DNA of 64,000 nucleotides from the NCBI RefSeq assembly GCF_030817535.1, contig NZ_JAUSZL010000002.1:2294001-2358000 (forward strand). The letters are read 5' to 3'. The position numbers were made by a program, and so were the translations under genes. Shown here one piece after another: positions 18,371 to 64,000 of the stretch (position 1 is the stretch's first letter; each line of letters opens with the position of its first letter). Source of the stretch: Streptomyces sp. V3I8 (GTDB taxonomy: Bacteria; Actinomycetota; Actinomycetes; Streptomycetales; Streptomycetaceae). The notes below the pieces were generated by a model. That model was given only the letters and a program-made list of their open reading frames with translations. It did not search any database and was not told where the DNA came from.

Positions 18371-19408
18371 ATGGCCGACATCACCCGGCGCCTGGGCTGG
18401 CGCCACCTGCGCGGCGCTCCGACCGCGCACATCAGGCACCACCGCGGCGGAGAGCTGCTGCACGACGGTCCCGGACTCAGCTTCTGGTACCGCGCGCTGA
18501 GCGCCGCCCTGTCCGAGGTACCGGTGGACGACCGCGAGTTGGCGATGACGTTCCACGCCCGTACGTCCGACTTCCAGGACGTGGCGGTGCAGGCGACCGT
18601 CACCTACCGGGTCAGCGACCCGGCACTCGCCGCGGCCCGCCTGGACTTCTCCGTCGATCCCGACACCGGGGTGTGGCGGGGCGCTCCGCTGGAGCAGCTG
18701 GGCACCCTGCTGACCGAGACGGCCCAGCAGCACGCACTGGACGTGCTGGCCCGTACGACGCTGGCCTCGGCGCTGGTCGACGGTGTGGCGTCGGTACGGG
18801 AGAGGGTCGCGGCGGGGCTCGCCGCGGAGCCGCGGCTGCCCGCGACCGGCATCGAGGTGGTGGCCGTACGGGTGGTCGCCCTGCGCCCGGAGCCCGAGGT
18901 GGAGCGGGCCCTGCGCACGCCGGCCCGCGAGCAGATCCAGCAGGAGGCGGACCGCGCCACGTACGAGCGGCGGGCCGTGGCCGTCGAGCGGGAGCGGACG
19001 ATCGCCGAGAACGAGCTGGCGAGCCAGATCGAACTCGCCCGGCGCGAGGAGCAGTTGGTCGACCAGCGCGGTACGAACACCCGCCGCGAGGCGGAGGAGC
19101 ACGCGGCGGCGGACGCGGTACGCGCCGACGCGGAGGCCGCCCGGTCGGTGAAGCTGGCCGCGGCGGAGGCCGAGCGGTCCGTGCGGCTCGCGCGGGCCGA
19201 GGCGGAGGCCGCGCGCGAGGTGGGTCAGGCGCGGGCGCAGGCCCAGGCCGCCTGGCTGGGGGTGCACGCCGAGGTCGACGTGGCCCTCCTGCACGCGCTG
19301 ACCGGGACGCGGCTGGCGGAGAACCTGCCCAGCATCGACAGCCTGACCGTCTCGCCGGACGTACTGACCGGCCTGCTGGCCAAGCTGGGTGTCCGGGACG
19401 GGACATGA
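18371..19408 (+). CDS. SPFH/Band 7 domain protein
   Basis: A 345-residue protein. Residues ~10-180 form an SPFH domain (LAMTFHARTSDFQDVAVQAT, TYRVSDPALAAA, VVAVRVVALRPEPEVERALR). Residues ~185-300 are a long Ala/Glu/Arg-rich coiled coil (AEAERSVRLARAEAEAAREV). There is no N-terminal membrane anchor, unlike flotillins, so it is probably cytosolic or peripheral. It shares a 4-bp ATGA overlap with the next gene, suggesting translational coupling with a NAD-kinase-like protein. A promoter with an overlapping palindrome lies just upstream. Confidence 0.85.
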   Translation: MADITRRLGWRHLRGAPTAHIRHHRGGELLHDGPGLSFWYRALSAALSEVPVDDRELAMTFHARTSDFQDVAVQATVTYRVSDPALAAARLDFSVDPDTGVWRGAPLEQLGTLLTETAQQHALDVLARTTLASALVDGVASVRERVAAGLAAEPRLPATGIEVVAVRVVALRPEPEVERALRTPAREQIQQEADRATYERRAVAVERERTIAENELASQIELARREEQLVDQRGTNTRREAEEHAAADAVRADAEAARSVKLAAAEAERSVRLARAEAEAAREVGQARAQAQAAWLGVHAEVDVALLHALTGTRLAENLPSIDSLTVSPDVLTGLLAKLGVRDGT

Positions 19409-55470: not shown

Positions 55471-56175
55471 TCAGTGGACCGTCAAGGCGGGGAGCTCGGT
55501 GAGAGTGTGATCGGGACGCGGAATTCCCCCGAATTCGCTGTGCGGTTCGACGGGAAGACTGTGGATGACGGCCTCGAAACGAGGCGGCAGGGAAGGGCGG
55601 AGGCCTTTCCAGCATCGCCTGATGAGATCGCGGCGTACGGCGTCGGGCAGCAGGTGCGGGTGTCGCAGTGTGCCGGCCGGTGAAGGCATGGGGGGCTGCG
55701 CGGGAGGGTTCGTCCGGGTACGCCAGTAAGTGGCGGTGCGGTGTTCGGAGCGTTGCTGGTGCAGGAGGAAGAGGCAGAAGGCTGCCGTGCGGTTGCCGGC
55801 GCCGGCGGCGAATTCGAACCAGAACTGGGAAGGCTCGCGGTATCCCGCGAGGTGGAGCAGTGCGGCGAAGACGAGGGCGCCCTCGGGTTCGACGGGGTCG
55901 GTGTCGAGCAGACGGGTGAGGCTGGAACAGGCTTGAGGAGCATCCACGATGAGGCTGACGGCCAGGTCGAGGTCGTGGGCGGCCTGCTCGTGGATGGTGG
56001 GATACGGAGTGGGGACACACACCTCAGGGGCCTGCTCGGTGCCGGCTTGCGCCAGGGCGGTGACGCGTTCGAGAGCGGCGTCGACGTCGTAGTCCCGGTA
56101 GGTGTCGGTGAGGGTTTCGGCGGCTTCGAGGACGGCGTCGATGTCGGCCGCGGGTTCGTGGTCGGTGCACTCCAC
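55471..56175 (-). CDS. uncharacterised protein coupled to the sigma factor
   Basis: A 234-residue soluble protein with acidic N terminus (ECTDHEPAADIDAVLEAAET). The centre is helical, resembling tetratricopeptide-like helices: LFAALLHLAGYREPSQFWFEFAAG is not written in full; key parts are LHLAGYREPSQFWF and AGNRTAAFCLFLLHQQRSEH. This pattern (a helix with YREPSQFWFEFAAGAGN) occurs in small regulatory proteins next to sigma factors in Streptomyces. GTG overlaps the sigma stop (TAGTG). It may be an anti-sigma-like partner, but this is inference. Confidence 0.65.
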   Translation of the reverse strand: MECTDHEPAADIDAVLEAAETLTDTYRDYDVDAALERVTALAQAGTEQAPEVCVPTPYPTIHEQAAHDLDLAVSLIVDAPQACSSLTRLLDTDPVEPEGALVFAALLHLAGYREPSQFWFEFAAGAGNRTAAFCLFLLHQQRSEHRTATYWRTRTNPPAQPPMPSPAGTLRHPHLLPDAVRRDLIRRCWKGLRPSLPPRFEAVIHSLPVEPHSEFGGIPRPDHTLTELPALTVH

Positions 56176-56762
56176 TAGTGTCGCGTCTCCTTGTCCTGGT
56201 AGGCGATGTTCAGTTGCTTGGCAAGAGAGCGCCGAGCGTGCCGGATGTGGGAGCGAACGGTCGCGGCGTCGATCCCGAGGTACTCGGCCACTTCTGCCTC
56301 CTCCTTGCCGAGGAGGAAGCGCAGCATGATGACGTCGTACTGCCGTTCGGGGAGAGTGGCTATCGCGGTATACAGGCCGATCTCCTGCGATATGACCCGC
56401 AGTTCGTCGCGCATCTCGTGCAACAGCAGCTTTTGGACTGCGGTCAGGTAGGCGGCGTCACCGACTTGCGGCTGCAGGTTGCGTTCGGCGAGCCAGCGGT
56501 GCACTTCCTCCTTCAGCACCGTCCATGCGTAGCGTGGAACCGAATCCTGAAGCAGCACATGCGGCCAGGTCCTCCTCAACCGGACGCAGGCGGCATCCAC
56601 CACCGTCTCCGCGGCAGCACGGCTGCCCACCTGCGTATGGGCGAAGCGCATCCAGAGCTTGCGGTGATACGCGTGGAAGGCATCGAAGGTCAACATCAGC
56701 CGCCCAGCGCGAGATGACAGTTCGGCCTGGCTCGCCCGGGAGGCGTCGGGAGGCGGCTGCAT
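56175..56762 (-). CDS. RNA polymerase sigma factor, sigma-70 (ECF-like)
   Basis: A 195-residue sigma factor. Region 2-like: FHAYHRKLWMRFAHTQVGSR with AETVVDAACVRLRRTWPHV. Region 4: LPERQYDVIMLRFLLGKEEA, EVAEYLGIDAATVRSHIRHA, RRSLAKQL. AGGGAG precedes the ATG at 56762. It overlaps both neighbours: a 58-codon ORF upstream (TGATG) and a 234-residue protein downstream (TAGTG), so all three are likely translated from one message. The target promoter is unknown. Confidence 0.85.
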   Translation of the reverse strand: MQPPPDASRASQAELSSRAGRLMLTFDAFHAYHRKLWMRFAHTQVGSRAAAETVVDAACVRLRRTWPHVLLQDSVPRYAWTVLKEEVHRWLAERNLQPQVGDAAYLTAVQKLLLHEMRDELRVISQEIGLYTAIATLPERQYDVIMLRFLLGKEEAEVAEYLGIDAATVRSHIRHARRSLAKQLNIAYQDKETRH

Positions 56763-56938
56763 CACGTCTCCCTTTCGGACGAAGCCGCGCGGGCGGCAGA
56801 GGTGATCTGCTGGTGAGGGTGGTGAGCTCCGGTGTGTACCGCGGTGGCGAGCAGCTTGCATCCGGCTCGGCGCGAGTCGGGTAAGGGGAGCCGGGCGGCA
56901 CTCCCCCAGACCGCCAGGGTGACCAGATCGATCTCCAC
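56762..56938 (-). CDS. small ORF upstream of the sigma factor (58 aa)
   Basis: A 58-residue ORF ending TGATG on the sigma start, with AAGGAAG just before GTG at 56938. It begins VEIDLVTLAVWGSAARLPLP and ends ITSAARAASSERET, with GCKLLATAVHTG between. No family. The translational coupling and ribosome site are the main support; it may act as a leader or a small regulator. Confidence 0.45.
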   Translation of the reverse strand: MEIDLVTLAVWGSAARLPLPDSRRAGCKLLATAVHTGAHHPHQQITSAARAASSERET

Positions 56939-57275
56939 GGGCTTCCTTGTCAACTGTGCACCGCACCGCCCCACGCTGAGGCGGCATCGGTGTGGGACCC
57001 CTGCTCTCCCACTCATCAGCCAACTGGAATCAGGGCCGTCCCGTGCAAGGCATTTTGAAGATTTTTGCGCGGGTGGCCGTAATGCGATCATCCGCTCGTG
57101 CGGCATCGGGCGGTTCGACCGGCTAAATGCCCATCCGGTGGCACAAGGGGGAAGAACAAGCTGGCCGATCCCTTGGTTGCCTGCAAGAGGAACGGAAAGG
57201 GAAGCTCTACCCGGCACAAAGCGACACAGCGTGGTGCGCTGCCGAAGGACATCCGAATCGACAACGGGGGCGAGC
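56939..57275. other. divergent promoter region
   Basis: About 337 bp between the small ORF/sigma operon and the methyltransferase. An AT-richer tract (cattttgaagatttttgcgc, 57051-57070) probably marks a promoter. No gene is supported. Confidence 0.5.
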
Positions 57276-58106
57276 GTGGACGAGAGCGGTACCGCACAGG
57301 AGCAGCACGGCGTCATCGACCTGGAACTGGACCGGCCCCACTCGGCCCGCATGTACGACTACTTCCTCGGCGGTATCACCAACTTCCCCGCCGACCGCGA
57401 AGCCGCCGCCAGAACGATCGCCGCCTTCCCTTCCACCCTGATCGCCGCGCGCAGCAACCGCGCCTTCATGCGCCGCTCCACCCGCCATCTCGCCCTGCTG
57501 GGCATAGAGCAGTTCCTGGACATAGGCACCGGCATCCCGACCTCCCCCAACCTTCACGAGGTCGCACAGGGCATCACCCCGCGGGCCCGCGTCGTCTACA
57601 CCGACAACGACCCCATCGTCCTGACCCACGCCCGCGCCCTCCTGCACAGCCGTCCCGAGGGCGCCACCGCCTACATGCAGGCCGACGTCACCGACCCCAC
57701 CGCCTTGCTGGCCCACCCCGTCCTGCGCTCCACCCTGGACTTCGACCGGCCGATCGCGCTCAGCCTCAACGCCCTGCTGCACTTCGTCACCGATGAGCAC
57801 CACGCCCATGCCGTCGTCGAAGTCCTCAAGGCCGCCCTGCCGTCCGGCAGCATGCTGGTCATCAGCCACGCCACACCCGACTTCGATCCCGAGGCCCTCG
57901 CCCGCATCACCGCCGTCTACCAGGCGGCCGGAACCGCCGTGCAAGCCCGCCCCCGCGACGAGATCGCCCGGTTCTTCGCAGGCTGGGAACTCCTCGACGC
58001 CGGCCTGCAGCCCATCCTGCGCTGGCACCCCGATCCGGACGAAGCGCACCTCACCTTCGCCGACGCCGAAGCCGCCTGCTACGCAGGCGTCGCTCGCAAA
58101 CCGTGA
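57276..58106 (+). CDS. SAM-dependent methyltransferase (PF04672/DUF574 type)
   Basis: A 276-residue methyltransferase common in Streptomyces. It begins with PHSARMYDYFLGGITNFPAD, then LGIEQFLDIGTGIPTSPNLH (SAM motif I), ARVVYTDNDPIVLTHARALL (motif II acidic residue), DRPIALSLNALLHFVTDEHH and a C-terminal FFAGWELLDAGLQPILRWHP. The substrate is unknown; many copies occur per genome. GTG at 57276 has GGGGGCGAG upstream. It diverges from the sigma-factor operon. Confidence 0.9.
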   Translation: MDESGTAQEQHGVIDLELDRPHSARMYDYFLGGITNFPADREAAARTIAAFPSTLIAARSNRAFMRRSTRHLALLGIEQFLDIGTGIPTSPNLHEVAQGITPRARVVYTDNDPIVLTHARALLHSRPEGATAYMQADVTDPTALLAHPVLRSTLDFDRPIALSLNALLHFVTDEHHAHAVVEVLKAALPSGSMLVISHATPDFDPEALARITAVYQAAGTAVQARPRDEIARFFAGWELLDAGLQPILRWHPDPDEAHLTFADAEAACYAGVARKP

Positions 58107-58757
58107 CCCGGCGTACGGATCGAGCAGACGCGGCAGCCGGTGAAGCTGTGCGATGAGGGGCCGGTGAAGCGCATCACGCCGACGCAGGCGGGGCGGACGC
58201 GGGGGTGGTTCGCCACCGGATACGGGACGCGGATCGCCTCGCAAGGGCTGGGTTCGCAGTGTGGAATGCGGCGGGTGGGGCGGACGGTGTGGCGTCCGGG
58301 GTAAGAGCCGTCTCGCGCCCGTCTCATTCCAAGACGCCCGGATCCGTCCCGTGTTCCCGCGGGGAGGAACGCACGCCCCCGACCGGCGGGGGCCTGCGAC
58401 CGGAGAACACCTCGACAGCAGTCCCGCCGGGGTCGGACCCAGCCAGTGACCGGCCTCGCGTCTTCGACGGGACCCAGGACCAGTTGGCCCGTCCCGGAGA
58501 CGCTCGTCCGCTTGACGTGCCCCCCGGCGCCCCGTAGCCGCTGGTCCGCAGCGGTCCCCTGGTCCTCGTCGGTGGGTATGCCGTACGGGCCCGCTGTCCC
58601 GCTGCCCGCCCTTACGGGCTCTGGGCAACCGGATCCGTGAGTACGGGATCCCCGCCGGAAGCAACCCTTGACGCAAACCCGCGTGTGTGTTCCGTCACGC
58701 GAGTAAGGTGACACCTCGTTTCGATCCCCTTCCCCCTGCCGGAAGCGACGGGCTCCT
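58107..58757. other. gene-poor region with a possible 54-codon ORF
   Basis: About 650 bp. A short plus-strand frame (GTG 58140 to TAA 58304) reads VKLCDEGPVKRITPTQAGRT then WFATGYGTRIASQGLGSQCG, protein-like but without a ribosome site or recognised family; it may be a relic. The rest is intergenic, ending with the Crp-like palindrome and promoter of the next gene. Confidence 0.35.
58680..58701. promoter_or_regulatory. Crp-like palindrome upstream of the Crp/Fnr gene
   Basis: CGCGTG-N10-CACGCG with 6-bp perfect outer arms. It contains TGTGT-N6-TCACG, the spacing of the Crp consensus TGTGA-N6-TCACA. A TAAGGT -10-like hexamer follows at 58704-58709, so the site overlaps the expected -35 region. 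Candidate autoregulatory site 57 bp before the start codon. Confidence 0.5.
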
Positions 58758-59747
58758 ATGGGTTTGGTGGTGCCGGACCGTACGTTCCTGGAAGCCCTTG
58801 ACACCGAAGCCCGGAAGGATCTCCTCCGTATCAGCGCGGAACGCGCCTTCCGGCCGGGTGAGCACCTCTTGCTGGAGCAGGACGACAGCACGCACGTGCT
58901 GGTCCTTCTGGAGGGGTGGGCCGTCGTGTCGACGGCGACCGACCGCTCGTCGGCCCGGCTGATCCTCGCCCTTCGGCGACGAGGCGAACTCATCGGCGAG
59001 ATGGCCGTTCTGGGCAGCGTCACGCGGACTGCCACCGTCACGGCCCTGGGGCCGGTACGAGCCCTGGTGGTGTCGGGTTCCCGGTTCCGCGCCTTCGCCG
59101 GACGCGACCCGCGGGTCGGGGCGTTGCTCATGGCCCAGCTCGTGGCCCGGCTCCGTTCCTCCGACGAGGAGCGTCGGTCCCTGGCCTCGTTGACGGTGAT
59201 GCAGCGCGTCGCTGCCAAGCTGCTGGAGCTGGGGGAACTGCAGAGCGCCCCGGATCCGGGACACGGGCATACGGGTACGGCTGCCGGGAGCGGAAAGCCG
59301 CCGGCGACCCTGGGTCCGGTGCCGGGCGCCCGGGCGCGGGGGTTCGGCGGAGGAGCAGGGGAAGCGGGCGGAAGAGAGCGGACGCCCGGCGGAGCGGAGC
59401 CGGCTCAGAGGCACTCGGCCGCCGCCGGTGCCGGTGCTCACCTTGCGCGGACGCCGGGACGCCCGGCGGATCCGGACGGTCCGCGAGCCGTCCCCGTGTC
59501 CGGTGTTGCGGACCAGGGTCCGGCGGGGGCCCACCCGCCCGGCGACGAGTCCCCCGTGCTCGCGGAGCTGGCCCAGCACGACCTCGCGGACGCCGTGGGA
59601 GCGACCCGTGAGGCGGTGGCCAAGTCGCTGCGGCTGCTGCGCGGCGCCGGCGTCGTACGGACTCGGCCCCGACGGATCGAGCTGATCGACCGCGACGCGC
59701 TGCGACTGCTGGCGGCCGGAGGGAACATCGGGTTCCCGGCCCGCTGA
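58758..59747 (+). CDS. Crp/Fnr family regulator with a ~100-residue inserted linker
   Basis: A 329-residue regulator. Residues 7-115 are a cyclic-nucleotide-binding domain; its phosphate-binding cassette is intact (GELIGEMAVLG with Glu81, then Arg90-Thr91). Residues 117-160 are the dimerisation helix, ending VAAKLLELGELQ. Residues 163-265 are an extra Gly/Ala/Pro-rich, probably disordered stretch (PGHGHTGTAAGSG, GFGGGAGEAGG). Residues 267-316 are the winged helix (VLAELAQHDLADAVGATREA, VAKSLRLLRG). In normal family members the dimer helix and HTH are 15-20 residues apart. ATG at 58758 has a weak ribosome site. The nearby cyclase-like operon suggests a real cyclic-nucleotide ligand. Confidence 0.85.
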   Translation: MGLVVPDRTFLEALDTEARKDLLRISAERAFRPGEHLLLEQDDSTHVLVLLEGWAVVSTATDRSSARLILALRRRGELIGEMAVLGSVTRTATVTALGPVRALVVSGSRFRAFAGRDPRVGALLMAQLVARLRSSDEERRSLASLTVMQRVAAKLLELGELQSAPDPGHGHTGTAAGSGKPPATLGPVPGARARGFGGGAGEAGGRERTPGGAEPAQRHSAAAGAGAHLARTPGRPADPDGPRAVPVSGVADQGPAGAHPPGDESPVLAELAQHDLADAVGATREAVAKSLRLLRGAGVVRTRPRRIELIDRDALRLLAAGGNIGFPAR

Positions 59748-60045
59748 TCCTGCTCCGCGTTTCCGTTCGGTCCGTTCCCCCCTGCCCGACATCGACTTGA
59801 CGTGCGCCGCTCCCGAGCCGGGGCGCCAGCGGGGCACTTCACGCCCTTTCCACATCGACAGAACCTCCGTCAAGAGCACCAAGGGGTTGTGTCGAAGTGC
59901 GGAGCGAAGTGCGCCTCCCTCTTGCACGGCGCGCGTTTCTCGTCCCCGCTCCATGTGCTGCGACCGGATGTGTAAACGACCACATCCCGCGGCAGCGGGA
60001 GCCGACATGCTGACGTGCAGTCACTGAACAACAGGGGAGGGCCGG
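59748..60045. promoter_or_regulatory. control region of the cyclase-like/NTPase operon
   Basis: A 298-bp region containing the Crp-like palindrome at 59966-59987 and a strong ribosome site (GGGGAGGG) before the ATG at 60046. No gene seen. Confidence 0.55.
59966..59987. promoter_or_regulatory. Crp-like palindrome upstream of the cyclase-like gene
   Basis: GGATGTG-TAAACGAC-CACATCC: perfect 7-bp arms, 22 bp overall, containing TGTG-N8-CACA, exactly the spacing of a Crp site. It ends 58 bp before the ATG of the cyclase-like gene. Same half-site core (TGTGT) as the palindrome upstream of the Crp gene. Confidence 0.6.
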
Positions 60046-60960
60046 ATGACCGGCGGTGCTGTCTACAAGACCTTGATGAGCGTGGATGCACGAGGATCCG
60101 GGACATACCTCAACGGCGCGAAGCGGCGGATGCGCGCGCAGATCTACGACCTCGCCCATGCCTCCTTCACCGCTTCCGGGATCGCGTCGGGCATGCTCCA
60201 TCTCGAGGACCGGGGGGACGGCTTCATCGCCGCGGTGGACGCGCGGATCCCGCCCGTCCAGATCTGCGGCACCTGGCTGGCCGAGATGCACCAGCGCCAG
60301 CGGGTCCAGAACGAGGACCTGGCGCGTCGGCTCGGGCTGCGCGTCGGGCTGCACGTGGGTCCGGTGGAACACGACGACGAGGGCCTGTCGGGCGAGGCCA
60401 TGGACCTGGTCTGCCGCCTCGCGGACTCGTCGACGGCTCGCTCGGTGCTGGAGCACTCGGGGCGTGATCTGGTCTGTGTGGTCTCCCACTCGCTCCACCA
60501 CGACGTGGTCCGGCACGGCGGGCGCTTCGTCGAGCCCTCGTCCTACCGCCAGGCTCAGGTCACCCTGAAAGAGGGACAGTCCAGCGCATGGTTCCACGTA
60601 CCGGGGGAGCCGAGGCCCACGATGCCGGGGGACGAAGGCGTCGGCGCGCTTCCCGCGGATGCGCCCACCGGGGGCCACGGGGGTGGCGGGTCCGCGGGAG
60701 CGGGCGCTGAGGGCCGGAGACCGCAGACGGACACGGGTGACACCGTCCCGTCCGCGGGGGACCGGGCTTCCGCCACCGGGCGCCGCCGGGCCGGTGGTTG
60801 CGACGACTGGCCGGTCAGCGAGGAGGCCGGCGCCCGGTGGGACATCCGGGTGCACGGCGGGACCAACGTCGTCCAGGACCGCGCCACGTTCCACGGGCCC
60901 GTCGGTTTCGGTGGCGCGGCCCGGCCCCCGGCCGACGACGGCACCGAGGGGACGCGGTGA
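60046..60960 (+). CDS. class III nucleotidyl-cyclase-like protein
   Basis: A 304-residue protein. Residues ~8-165 look like a divergent class III (adenylate/guanylate) cyclase domain. The first metal Asp is in LMSVDARGSGTYL (Asp14), the second in LEDRGDGFIAAVD (Asp58), and RVGLHVGPVEHDDEGLSGEA matches the strand-loop region of cyclases. Such cyclase-like domains without membrane segments occur in Streptomyces beside NTPase effectors. Residues ~190-260 are Gly/Ala/Asp low complexity. The C terminus (265-290) carries a short motif, WDIRVHGGTNVVQDRATFHG, with a related copy in the next protein. The stop overlaps the next start (GTGA). Whether it makes a cyclic nucleotide is not known. Confidence 0.7.
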   Translation: MTGGAVYKTLMSVDARGSGTYLNGAKRRMRAQIYDLAHASFTASGIASGMLHLEDRGDGFIAAVDARIPPVQICGTWLAEMHQRQRVQNEDLARRLGLRVGLHVGPVEHDDEGLSGEAMDLVCRLADSSTARSVLEHSGRDLVCVVSHSLHHDVVRHGGRFVEPSSYRQAQVTLKEGQSSAWFHVPGEPRPTMPGDEGVGALPADAPTGGHGGGGSAGAGAEGRRPQTDTGDTVPSAGDRASATGRRRAGGCDDWPVSEEAGARWDIRVHGGTNVVQDRATFHGPVGFGGAARPPADDGTEGTR

Positions 60961-63900
60961 ACGGCGACGGCAGGGGCGGGGGCCCCGGCGCGCAGGGGCC
61001 CGCGGGCGCGTCCCCTCCACAGAACCGGCCGCGGCACCGGGCGGCCTCACCGGTCGGCGGCGACGGGTGGGGAGCGCCCGACCGGAACGTACGGGGAGGC
61101 GACGCTCCGGGCCGGGAACCGCGGGGGCCGTCGGGCCAGGAGCACGGAGGGGGCGTGAACCCCGGTCGCGCCGGGCGCGACGATGCCTGGGAGCACGACC
61201 GGGACCAGGGACACGACCAGGCCTCGGGACGCGACGAGAACCGCGAGGATCCGGACGCGTCCGCCGGGACGGAAGGTGCCGAACAGGACCGCGCCGAGAG
61301 AGCGCAGCAGGAGGAGCGCTTCCGCGAGGCGACAGGGGATCCGCTGACCGAAGGGGGCGTGCCCGGAGAGGCTCGCGCCGCGACCCGCGCCCAGCGCACC
61401 GCGCAAGCGCGCTTCGACGTACACGGCAACAGCAGCGTCTTCGACCGGAGCCGCTTCGCCCACGCACACTTCGGTGACGTCTACGTCGGAGCGCGCGACG
61501 GGGCGGTCCCGGTCTTCGGAGAGGTGCCCGAGGACGAGCTGGACCGGCTGCGGCAGGTCTACCGGCCCCCGGTCGGCTACCCCGCGCTCAAGGAGGTGCT
61601 GCGCACGCGCCGGGTGGTGGTGCTGGGCGGTCCGCCCGGCACCGGACGGCTGACGACCGGGCTCTGCCTGCTCGATGAACTCACCGTCGCCGCCCGCACC
61701 ACCGCGGCCGGCCGCGAGGAGCCCTCCGGGGTGCCCACACAGGAGTCGCAGAAGGCCGGCACGGGGAGCGGAGCCCGCACCGGCGTCACGGTCCGAGGAC
61801 GCGTCACCCGACTGGCTCCGTCCGACCTAGGACTGCTGTCGGGCGATCCGGACTCGGTGGTCGGCGGCGTTCCGGACGGAGGCGGTTTCATCGTCCAGCT
61901 CCCCGAACTCCCCGGCGGCTGGACGGCACCGCAGGAACTGCATCTCGACGCCCTCGCCGCGCGCCTGGCCGTGCGGAACGCGTACGCGGTGCTCGTCGTC
62001 TCCCCCTCCTCACCGGCGGGACACCTGCTGACGGGACGCTACGGGAGGTCCTGCCCGCCGGCCCCCGCCGGGGAACTGCTGGCATGGCAGTTGCTGCGGC
62101 AGTTGTCCGACGAACCCGGCCCGGAGGCCGTGGCCCGGGGCGAGCAGATCCTCGCGCACCCCCTCTTCCTGACCTCGCTGGGTATCCGGCCGGAGGCCTT
62201 GCGCCCGTCCGAGGCGGAACTGCTCGCGCTCTGGGTGGCCCGGCACGTCCGCGGCGAGATGCGCCGCGAGGAACTTCTGGACGTCTGCGCCGAGATCGCG
62301 CGGCAACAGGCGCGTGAGTGGTTCACCGGGACGGCCGACCCCATGCCCTCGGCCGGAGAGCCGGTCGGTGACCGCGGCCCCGCCGCGGTGGGCGACCGGC
62401 CGGACGAAGCCCAGCGCCGCGTACGGGAAGCCGCGTTCCGGATCGCGCTCGCGGTACTGGACGGGGAGGCCTTCAGCGCTGTCGCGGACGCCGCCGAACT
62501 GCTCGCGCAACAGATCCTCACCGCGCGCGCTCCCGACCGGACGCACGGGCGGCCGGTGTTCGCCGAGAACCTTGAGGGCCTGCTCTCCGCCTGCCGGGCC
62601 GAACTGCGCAGTGGTGAGGAGGAGTCCGTGGGCGGCGTGCCGGTGCCGGTGCGCACCGTGGCATACCGGGGCGAGGCACTGGCCGCCTCGGTCCTGGCCG
62701 AGGTCTGGCACCGCCACCATGCCGCACGTGGCCCCGTGGTGCGCTGGCTGCGCGAGCTGGCGGGCGACCCCCGTCCGCAGGTGTGGGTACGTGCCGCCGT
62801 GGTGGCGGGCGAACTGGCCACCGCCGATCTGGGGTACGGCTTCACGGAGTTGATCCGGCCTCCGGCCGTCGCGGGCGACGCCCGGCGCCGCTTCTTCGCC
62901 GCGACCGCACTGGGGCAGGCGGCCGGCCGTGAACCGTATCGCTCCGCAGTGCGCGCCGTGGTCGCGGACTGGGCGGACGCCCCCGTGGCGGCGCTGCGGT
63001 GGACCGCGGCGCTGACGCTCGGGTTCGGCCGTGTCATGGACGACACGCGCACTGCCCTCGACCTGCTGTGCGGTATCGGCAGCAGGGACGAGGGCGCCCA
63101 GGCGCTCGTCGCCTCCTACGGCGCGGCCCGGCTCACCGCCGGCAGCCGGGCGGGCGAGGCGGCGACCGTGCTGCGGGAGTGGTCGGACGACGCCTCCGGC
63201 GAACGGCTTCAGCTGGCGATGCTGTGCGCCGTGCGGCTGTTCTGCGCCCGCACGGACGACATGTGGCAGCCGGAGGGGGCGGACGAGCTCCGCCCGTCGG
63301 CCTCCGGTTCACCGACGGTGCCCGCACCGCCGGCCGAAGCGGTGTCCGTCGTCCGGGCCGGGTCGCCCATGGGCGACCGGGTCCCCCACCGTGTGCCCGC
63401 GGTACCGCGCGGTCCCGACCCGCGCGCCGTGGCCGGCCGCGCCTGGTCCGCCCACCGCCCGCCGGTGCCGCGGGCGCCCACCGCCCCGACCGACGCGGAG
63501 CTGGCCCGCCGTACCCACTGGCCGCTCGCCCTGGCGGTCGCGGTGGTGGTGGAGAGCGCGGCCGAACCCCTCGCCGACCTGCTGTGGCGGTCCCTGGACA
63601 ACCATCTGTCGTCCGAGGCCGCGACCGACGGCCTGACCATGTGGCTGCGGGCCGCCGAGGCGGACGCCACGCTCCCCGGCCACGAACGGCGGACCTACGT
63701 CTTCGAGCGGGAGCCCGGAGCCGCAGGAACGGGAGCGGACGCAGGAGCAGGGCGGCACGACGCACACGCGGCGGACGGCGGGGTGGCGACATCCCCCGGC
63801 GAGATCCTCCAGGCACTGCTCTGGCTGCTGCCCCGGATGATCCGCCGACGCCGCGACGCCGAGCGGTTGCGCTGGCTGCTGGCGACCATGGCCCATGCCC

Positions 63901-63998
63901 CCCAGGAACCGATGACCGACGTCTTCGAGCGCCATGTGCTGGCCTCGATGGCGACGACGGGCAGTGGCCCCAGTGGCCAGGAGGAGGAACACGGATGA
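60957..63998 (+). CDS. divergent STAND-like P-loop NTPase with C-terminal helical repeats
   Basis: A 1013-residue protein. Residues 1-150 are low-complexity, charged and Gly-rich. Residues 152-179 (ARFDVHGNSSVFDRSRFAHA...) share a motif with the upstream protein. Residues 183-500 look like a STAND-type NTPase: VFGEVPEDELDRLRQVYRPP, Walker A GGPPGTGRLTT (residues 224-234) with Arg where Lys is usual, and GGFIVQLPELPG where Walker B should be, without Asp. From about 560 on, helical repeats follow ([60 protein letters not shown]), HEAT-like. No effector domain recognised. It overlaps both neighbouring genes (GTGA at the start, ATGA at the end). Confidence 0.7.
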   Translation: MNGDGRGGGPGAQGPAGASPPQNRPRHRAASPVGGDGWGAPDRNVRGGDAPGREPRGPSGQEHGGGVNPGRAGRDDAWEHDRDQGHDQASGRDENREDPDASAGTEGAEQDRAERAQQEERFREATGDPLTEGGVPGEARAATRAQRTAQARFDVHGNSSVFDRSRFAHAHFGDVYVGARDGAVPVFGEVPEDELDRLRQVYRPPVGYPALKEVLRTRRVVVLGGPPGTGRLTTGLCLLDELTVAARTTAAGREEPSGVPTQESQKAGTGSGARTGVTVRGRVTRLAPSDLGLLSGDPDSVVGGVPDGGGFIVQLPELPGGWTAPQELHLDALAARLAVRNAYAVLVVSPSSPAGHLLTGRYGRSCPPAPAGELLAWQLLRQLSDEPGPEAVARGEQILAHPLFLTSLGIRPEALRPSEAELLALWVARHVRGEMRREELLDVCAEIARQQAREWFTGTADPMPSAGEPVGDRGPAAVGDRPDEAQRRVREAAFRIALAVLDGEAFSAVADAAELLAQQILTARAPDRTHGRPVFAENLEGLLSACRAELRSGEEESVGGVPVPVRTVAYRGEALAASVLAEVWHRHHAARGPVVRWLRELAGDPRPQVWVRAAVVAGELATADLGYGFTELIRPPAVAGDARRRFFAATALGQAAGREPYRSAVRAVVADWADAPVAALRWTAALTLGFGRVMDDTRTALDLLCGIGSRDEGAQALVASYGAARLTAGSRAGEAATVLREWSDDASGERLQLAMLCAVRLFCARTDDMWQPEGADELRPSASGSPTVPAPPAEAVSVVRAGSPMGDRVPHRVPAVPRGPDPRAVAGRAWSAHRPPVPRAPTAPTDAELARRTHWPLALAVAVVVESAAEPLADLLWRSLDNHLSSEAATDGLTMWLRAAEADATLPGHERRTYVFEREPGAAGTGADAGAGRHDAHAADGGVATSPGEILQALLWLLPRMIRRRRDAERLRWLLATMAHAPQEPMTDVFERHVLASMATTGSGPSGQEEEHG

Positions 63999-64000
63999 CG
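63995..64000 (+). CDS. start of a third coupled gene (only two codons in the window)
   Basis: ATGACG, with ATG overlapping the stop of the NTPase gene (ATGA) and GGAGGAGG 8 nt upstream. The product is out of view; in this kind of module it may be the effector. Confidence 0.6.

Follow-up and report, generated by a model that had tools for sequence, protein, structure and literature searches.

A conserved Crp, cyclase-like and STAND-like gene cassette of Streptomyces as candidate first half of a Pycsar-like alarm system

Introduction

How might a Crp/Fnr-family regulator, a nucleotidyl-cyclase-like protein and a large P-loop protein encoded side by side work together, and upon what would their signal act? 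This question is raised by the end of a 64,000-nucleotide stretch of DNA from Streptomyces sp. V3I8, called the window in the following, which covers positions 2294001-2358000 of a 9.3 Mb genome. The window edge at position 64000 cuts the operon, and the downstream sequence was read as well (position in the fetched locus L002 + 58000 = window position; the other fetched loci carry L numbers likewise). We give about an even chance to the reading that an alarm cassette of the Pycsar-like kind starts with these genes and has its first half in them; a STAND-like P-loop protein would gate the cyclase-like protein via a paired motif, and the cyclase product would fire the effector PycTM and act through a local Crp protein.

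Gene order and conservation of the cassette

The Crp/Fnr-family regulator (58758-59747, plus strand, 329 residues) matches PF00027 at 1.2e-14 and PF13545 at 1.3e-11, with both domains above the Pfam cut-offs (cNMP_binding 54.4 bits against 27.5, HTH_Crp_2 44.8 bits against 27). It possesses Glu81 and Arg90-Thr91, as claimed in an earlier note on the window, which had described an intact cyclic-nucleotide cassette, and a long Gly/Pro-rich insert lies between its cNMP-binding domain and the helix-turn-helix. The cyclase-like open reading frame (60046-60960, plus strand, 304 residues) starts 298 bp downstream, where the note had placed an operon after about 300 bp, and overlaps by GTGA with the gene of the STAND-like P-loop protein (60957-63998, plus strand, 1013 residues); for all three frames, codon-position G+C is consistent with coding. 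The P-loop gene overlaps by ATGA with gene 3, of which only the start is inside the window; this third gene at the window edge, equally announced in the note, starts at 63995 and extends on the plus strand to window-equivalent position 65329 (444 residues). Again by ATGA, the end of gene 3 overlaps the start of gene 4 (window-equivalent 65326-65856), which matches PycTM (PF18967 at 2.2e-16, above cut-off, and PADLOC PycTM at 1.1e-11) and displays two hydrophobic stretches. The effector role of the PycTM family is established (PMC11224242). Its members are the membrane effectors of anti-phage Pycsar systems and kill phage-infected cells. Beyond position 64000 follow gene 3, PycTM and then a cluster of Tubulin_2, vWA-like and GTPase-like genes; a downstream effector, as suspected in the note, finds support in gene 4, but gene 3 is no recognised effector.

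The block of Crp, cyclase-like, STAND-like, gene 3 and PycTM genes recurs across Streptomyces loci. A survey across 121 Streptomyces genomes gave matches to the cyclase-like protein (E<=1e-10) at 62 places in 52 genomes, PycTM at 110 places in 72 genomes and Tubulin_2 at 22 sites in 21 genomes. A same-strand PycTM gene is present within 8 kb at 36/62 cyclase places, compared to about 0.05 expected from uniform placement, and 20 of the 22 Tubulin_2 sites, with L059 and L060 as the exceptions, have a cyclase within 12 kb. The tubulin-free loci L052, L053, L054, L055 and L057 retain Crp, cyclase, P-loop protein and gene 3; PycTM is seen in L054, L055 and L057, with none detected in L052 and L053.

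Of 68 fetched cyclase loci, 54 have Crp upstream and 47 a member of the P-loop family downstream, while gene 3 is present in 50 and PycTM in 38; these fractions are neither independent nor unbiased, as the loci were selected by cyclase similarity. The PycTM count is inflated in addition, a nearby PycTM having been the reason for choosing 14/20 regions in one fetched set; the 36/62 of the genus survey is the figure without that selection. Some of the Crp and P-loop misses are artefacts of picking open reading frames, with the P-loop protein of L006, L050, L051, L053, L062 and L068 missed in the count and yet matched by A2, a profile of 28 family members. In the named genomes, 51 stretches matched a pattern; six of them encode a relative, and each of the six has Crp upstream and a P-loop family gene downstream. 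Within these selected samples, the three genes do co-occur in related genomes; the note had named a lack of co-occurrence as a refutation. In a class-wide sample, the cyclase family is present in 24/148 genomes and 12/81 genera.

Crp, cyclase, STAND-like protein, gene 3 and PycTM might on the other hand be chance neighbours or separate units, as the 298-bp gap sets the Crp gene apart and as Crp and cyclase occur without the remaining genes in L067. However, the order is kept in many of the 68 loci, and the GTGA and ATGA overlaps together with the 36/62 PycTM linkage make this explanation highly improbable.

The cyclase-like protein

Compared to the PDB, A1, a profile of 30 cyclase relatives, matches the soluble guanylyl cyclase 3et6 (4.4e-7), the cyclase 5d0g (2e-6) and four more cyclases below 0.01; L062 and L067, which align poorly with the family at the start and in the second half, respectively, were left out of the profile. 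The assignment as a divergent class III member is supported by this profile comparison, which points to the cyclase fold proposed in the note rather than to an unrelated one. Pfam Guanylate_cyc reaches the window protein at 0.093 only. In the family alignment D58 is invariant, while D14, R124 and K175 are nearly invariant, so that both metal-binding Asp are indeed retained, as is the catalytic Arg. In the profile alignment, Glu54 coincides with the residue that specifies guanine in soluble guanylyl cyclase. Catalytic activity of the cyclase-like protein is plausible.

The STAND-like P-loop protein

The STAND-like assignment is weaker. Of the P-loop protein described in the earlier note, the reading frame of 1013 residues stands, but the STAND label is only suggested, by an nSTAND3 match below the Pfam cut-off (E=0.32) and by a further STAND-like protein of the genome to which the family profile connects it. 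This second protein (L003:5033-7021), encoded behind a TIR gene, was recovered by A2 with E=6.3e-9 when 57 sequences were searched, and itself gives nSTAND3 at 0.0088, equally below cut-off. Pfam NB-ARC models do not match the window P-loop protein. Of 56 proteins encoded at cognate positions, A2 recovers 49, part of which closely resemble sequences that the profile was built from.

The Walker A motif of the window protein is degenerate (GPPGTGR, 61629-61649, plus strand), with Arg231 in place of Lys. All 28 aligned relatives have GxGR instead of GxGK, with R231 invariant, and therefore hydrolysis of nucleoside triphosphates is doubtful. The Walker A Lys is present in the distant L065 and L066.

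A paired motif on the cyclase tail and the P-loop protein

In many loci, inspection by eye reveals a short Gly/Asn-rich motif at the C-terminus of the cyclase and a look-alike before the P-loop of the next protein. In the window, the motif ARWDIRVHGGTNVVQDRATFHGPVGFGG (residues 263-290 of the cyclase, 60832-60915, plus strand) is accompanied by the receptor-side motif ARFDVHGNSSVFDRSRFAHAHFGDVYVG (residues 151-178 of the STAND-like protein, 61407-61490, plus strand). The likeness can be striking, as with the 25 identical residues GSLVGGDQHGVSGGQVTGDVILGGS common to both motifs in L082, the pair SFSHTGEHGIQAYN and RFSHSGEHGIQAYN in L078 or NQIYDGNTF and SQIYDGNTF in L050.

Cognate motifs score above non-cognate ones in three tests. 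The first, with 19 representatives of 32 loci, gave p=5e-5 from gapped scores that include low-complexity linkers. With 15 representatives from 29/36 loci (L067 and L069 excluded beforehand, five loci without anchor dropped), p=2e-5 was obtained, and 5/15 cognates exceeded the 99th percentile of shuffles. With 18 representatives from 42/56 loci, 0/100,000 permutations reached the observed difference; here L004, L067 and L086 were excluded and 11 loci lacking a P-loop regular-expression match were dropped, among them pairs strong by eye (L082, L081, L084, L054) as well as apparent non-pairs (L069, L087). The 60% identity filter leaves some relatedness among the representatives, and for at least four of them (L040, L053, L056, L058) the best-scoring segments are in linkers and not in the motif. 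The window's own pair gives a single-pair gapped p=0.019, and a profile-profile comparison of the motifs of its own clade, with segments picked after inspection, gives P=3.3e-4 and a probability of 38%. For the family, adjacent switch and effector candidates thus appear to share a similar short motif, the likeness of the window's own pair being modest. In the earlier note, the cyclase signal reaches the NTPase operon by way of the Crp protein; rather than being a target of this signal, the P-loop protein more likely gates the cyclase via the paired motif.

A candidate operator of the cyclase operon

The palindrome GATGTGTAAACGACCACATC (59967-59986), with TGTG-N8-CACA spacing, is a candidate Crp operator of the cyclase operon. 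Its 19 identical bases are conserved in seven loci (L002, L004-L008 and L039) with diverged flanks, and the GTG is located 74-77 bp before the cyclase start in these 7 of the 33 gaps examined. TGTG-N8-CACA occurs in 8/33 gaps compared to a mean of 0.04 in base shuffles, seven of the eight representing one inherited site. As one such site per window is not unusual (1 found, 0.46 expected), the operator evidence rests on conservation. No other match to GATGTGTAAACGACCACATC exists in the genome at up to three mismatches, and therefore a local rather than a global operator is favoured, to which the adjacent Crp protein would bind.

The earlier note had seen palindromes before both units and had let the Crp protein control the operon. 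Crp control is supported by the conserved site at the cyclase promoter, but not by one at crp itself in this clade: a GTG-N8-CAC site upstream of crp is present in this genome, none is found upstream in the nearest relatives L004-L008, and a palindrome at this place was dropped as a clade operator. In L005 and L006, GTG-N8-CAC sites exist only inside the crp gene start (crp starts estimated), and in L042, L043, L047 and L048, of another clade, one is situated at about -82 of the estimated crp start.

TIR neighbours, distant versions and fusions

The STAND-like gene of the same P-loop family mentioned above lies behind a TIR gene in this genome, at a distance of about 22 kb downstream from the cyclase (L003:4299-7021, window-equivalent 82299-85021). 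The cyclase thereby occupies the place that in this other pair belongs to an effector. A relative of the cyclase is also part of a fusion: L092:3356-4849, from another genus, encodes an EAD1-cyclase-TIR protein (cyclase profile 3e-53, EAD1 2.7e-9, TIR 7.8e-26), the only one among the proteins scanned with EAD1. TIR-like tails were noticed in L095, L097 and L098 by eye only.

A distant version of the cassette, with Crp, cyclase, P-loop protein, gene 3 and often PycTM, is located near rpoC and/or rpsL in 15/21 checked distant loci (L070-L077, L080, L081, L084, L085, L088, L089 and L093), in 13 of them near both. PycTM is present in 10/15, these ten having been chosen for a nearby PycTM. A gene for an M48 peptidase follows the cassette in L071 (2.5e-12), with a similar appearance of other loci judged by eye only. 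In L091:187-8490, from another family, the genes for cyclase, P-loop protein and gene 3 product are followed by PP2C, a gene without assigned family and vWA, an arrangement that we take to be TerY-P-like. As the trio of cyclase, P-loop protein and gene 3 is joined to different partners, it looks like a front end. A kinase label given to L091:913-2196 and to L002:17332-18654 was dropped, as no Pfam match was found.

The fixed place of the distant block near rpoC/rpsL resembles housekeeping more than a mobile defence island and speaks for ordinary regulation, in which the Crp protein answers cellular cAMP, the cyclase makes cAMP or cGMP for development, and the PycTM-like and STAND-like proteins are structural components. 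The unique palindrome, indicative of a local operator, argues against it; equally, the motif test and the TIR parallel point to a switch/effector logic, and PycTM belongs to an established effector family (PMC11224242). We regard ordinary regulation as rather improbable.

Neighbouring genes

The cluster that follows the cassette in this genome starts with a vWA-like protein (window-equivalent 65972-68392; VWA 8.7e-5, 23.3 bits against a cut-off of 23.8) and a Tubulin_2 protein (window-equivalent 68495-72511; Pfam 7.8e-71). Downstream are encoded a transmembrane protein with four hydrophobic stretches, a 440-residue protein without family and a DO-GTPase2-like protein (Pfam 9e-5, 22.7 bits against a cut-off of 27). 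The gene after the latter has no Pfam match. In this place, L111:91-2725, an 837-residue open reading frame is overlapped by one of 274 residues in another frame, which may represent two genes or a frameshift; Pfam, GAP1 included, matches neither L111:91-2604 nor L111:1901-2725, and the GAP1-N2 label was dropped.

No family could be assigned to gene 3. SPFH/Band 7, suggested by eye, was settled neither by Pfam, PDB nor profile comparison: Band_7 is absent from the Pfam matches of ten members, the PDB gave no match, and hhalign with the genome's own Band_7 proteins gave P=0.028 at a probability of 1.8% (P=0.097 against one of them alone). A Band_7 match is present inside the window at about 18467-18961 (L110, 5e-17). 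In L065 (7788-9614), gene 3 has an apparent C-terminal vWA domain (VWA 0.0015, under cut-off), and in L066 (5758-7671) such a domain was judged by eye only; these are the loci whose P-loop protein retains the Walker A Lys.

Upstream of the cassette, the region 56175-58106 codes on the minus strand for a protein with sigma-70 region 4 (8.7e-14) and on the plus strand for an S-adenosylmethionine-dependent methyltransferase (PF04672, 1.5e-100), with reading frames that overlap as listed and uncertain starts. Elsewhere in the genome, a second PycTM-family match is located at G000:C1:34450-34710.

Proposed mechanism and points that weigh against it

In the proposed alarm cassette, the STAND-like protein would be the probable sensor and nucleation scaffold, which may not hydrolyse nucleoside triphosphates. 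A cue such as phage or cell damage would change its state, upon which the exposed motif before the P-loop may recruit or template the similar motif on the cyclase tail. The clustered cyclases would dimerise and make a cyclic nucleotide, and this messenger would activate PycTM, encoded two genes after the STAND-like gene, with membrane disruption and growth arrest as the predicted outcome. The messenger would also activate the adjacent Crp protein, which might bind the palindrome at the cyclase promoter and set the expression of the operon.

Several observations weigh against this reading. No same-strand PycTM is present within 8 kb at 26/62 cyclase places, and 74/110 PycTM places lack such a cyclase, only 36/110 having one. 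In the class-wide sample, six of the 12 fetched loci (L092, L094, L095, L097-L099) are without any partner under the criteria of the 68-locus count, and L067 consists of Crp and a cyclase-like open reading frame only. The GATGTGTAAACGACCACATC site was not found in 26/33 gaps, L009 included. The motif signal is uneven, as in the test with 18 representatives 6/18 cognates exceed the 99th percentile of shuffles (compared to 4.2% of the non-cognates), the cognate partner ranks first in 5/18, and the window's own pair ranks 13 of 18 by ungapped score. PADLOC PycC models give no match to the window cyclase; at E<=0.1, PDLC00734 matches 7/30 relatives (best 0.012) and PDLC02369 2/30 (best 0.0078). 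At E<=0.01, Pfam recognises 0/30 cyclase relatives. Finally, in most members Asp120 takes the place of the active-site Asn of the canonical class III motif Asn-x-x-x-Arg.

The last two points equally fit a dead cyclase that serves as nucleotide-binding adaptor or regulatory subunit, with the motif assembling a scaffold with the STAND-like protein and with the tubulin/vWA-like/GTPase-like cluster as executor in membrane remodelling or hyphal development. The linkage of 20/22 Tubulin_2 sites to the cyclase is in line with this explanation, as is the catalytic inactivity that Kaur et al. (2020; PMC7159879) report for several vWA-fused cNMP cyclase domains. However, D14, D58, R124 and K175 are kept, the Asn is kept in the distant members L065, L066, L068 and L069, the block occurs without tubulin, and the linked Crp and PycTM genes are most readily understood with a cyclic nucleotide being produced. 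A dead cyclase, the main rival of the proposed reading, seems unlikely to us, though less so than ordinary regulation.

A more elaborate form of the alarm cassette is a receptor-gated Pycsar, with an NLR-like, possibly non-hydrolysing STAND-like switch that would template the cyclase, a messenger that would open PycTM, a dedicated Crp protein with one operator and a front end that would combine with tubulin-like, vWA/PP2C or M48-peptidase partners. This form is put forward tentatively, as a possibility that falls short of an even chance.

Comparison with known systems

Pycsar systems have been described already (PMC11224242); they are characterised by a cyclase that makes cCMP or cUMP and by anti-phage activity. 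As in these systems, a class III cyclase-like gene shares an operon with a PycTM effector gene. Unlike there, the window cyclase has no PycC match and bears a tail motif, and the cassette adds STAND-like, gene 3 and Crp genes. In EAD-coupled conflict systems (Kaur et al., 2020; PMC7159879), a core component and an effector encoded beside it each carry a copy of a short domain, and homotypic coupling has been proposed; the window motifs are placed in the same way, but encompass only about 28 residues, and Pfam EAD is absent from the window cyclase and STAND-like protein. According to the same text, cNMP cyclase domains occur in conflict systems, and some AP-ATPase peptide-processing systems have a linked regulator that is CRP-like. 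Bacterial amyloid signalling sequences (BASS) are carried by effectors at the C-terminus and by NLRs at the N-terminus, the genes of both being collocated (PMC12261475). By this description, the motif placement on the products of neighbouring genes is alike, but the window P-loop protein, as stated, matches no NB-ARC model. Related STAND and death-domain systems have equally been described (PMC8195603).

FtsZl1 operons are known as well (Makarova & Koonin, 2010; PMC2875224). With these Tubulin_2/FtsZl1-vWA-GTPase systems, and with the DO-GTPase/GAP1-N2 systems (PMC7159879), the locus has in common the Tubulin_2 gene, beside genes that are vWA-like and DO-GTPase2-like by matches under the Pfam cut-offs. 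In contrast, section 29 of PMC7159879, its figures and supplements aside, names no cyclase, Crp or STAND component, the words 'cyclase', 'cNMP' and 'Streptomyces' do not occur in the main text of PMC2875224, and GAP1 of the GAP1-N2 tubulin GTPase system was not found here by Pfam. In the literature searched, supplements aside, the components are described separately, and no description of a single conserved cassette that unites them was found.

Significance

These loci would escape annotation, since Pfam does not recognise the cyclase family and PADLOC hardly does. We know of no dedicated sensor gene in Pycsar systems. If the proposed reading is true, a conserved switch gene matched by motif to the cyclase would supply such a sensor and would link nucleotide signalling with NLR-type switching in bacteria. 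Through the distant copy near rpoC/rpsL in Streptomyces, the question might become accessible in laboratory strains.

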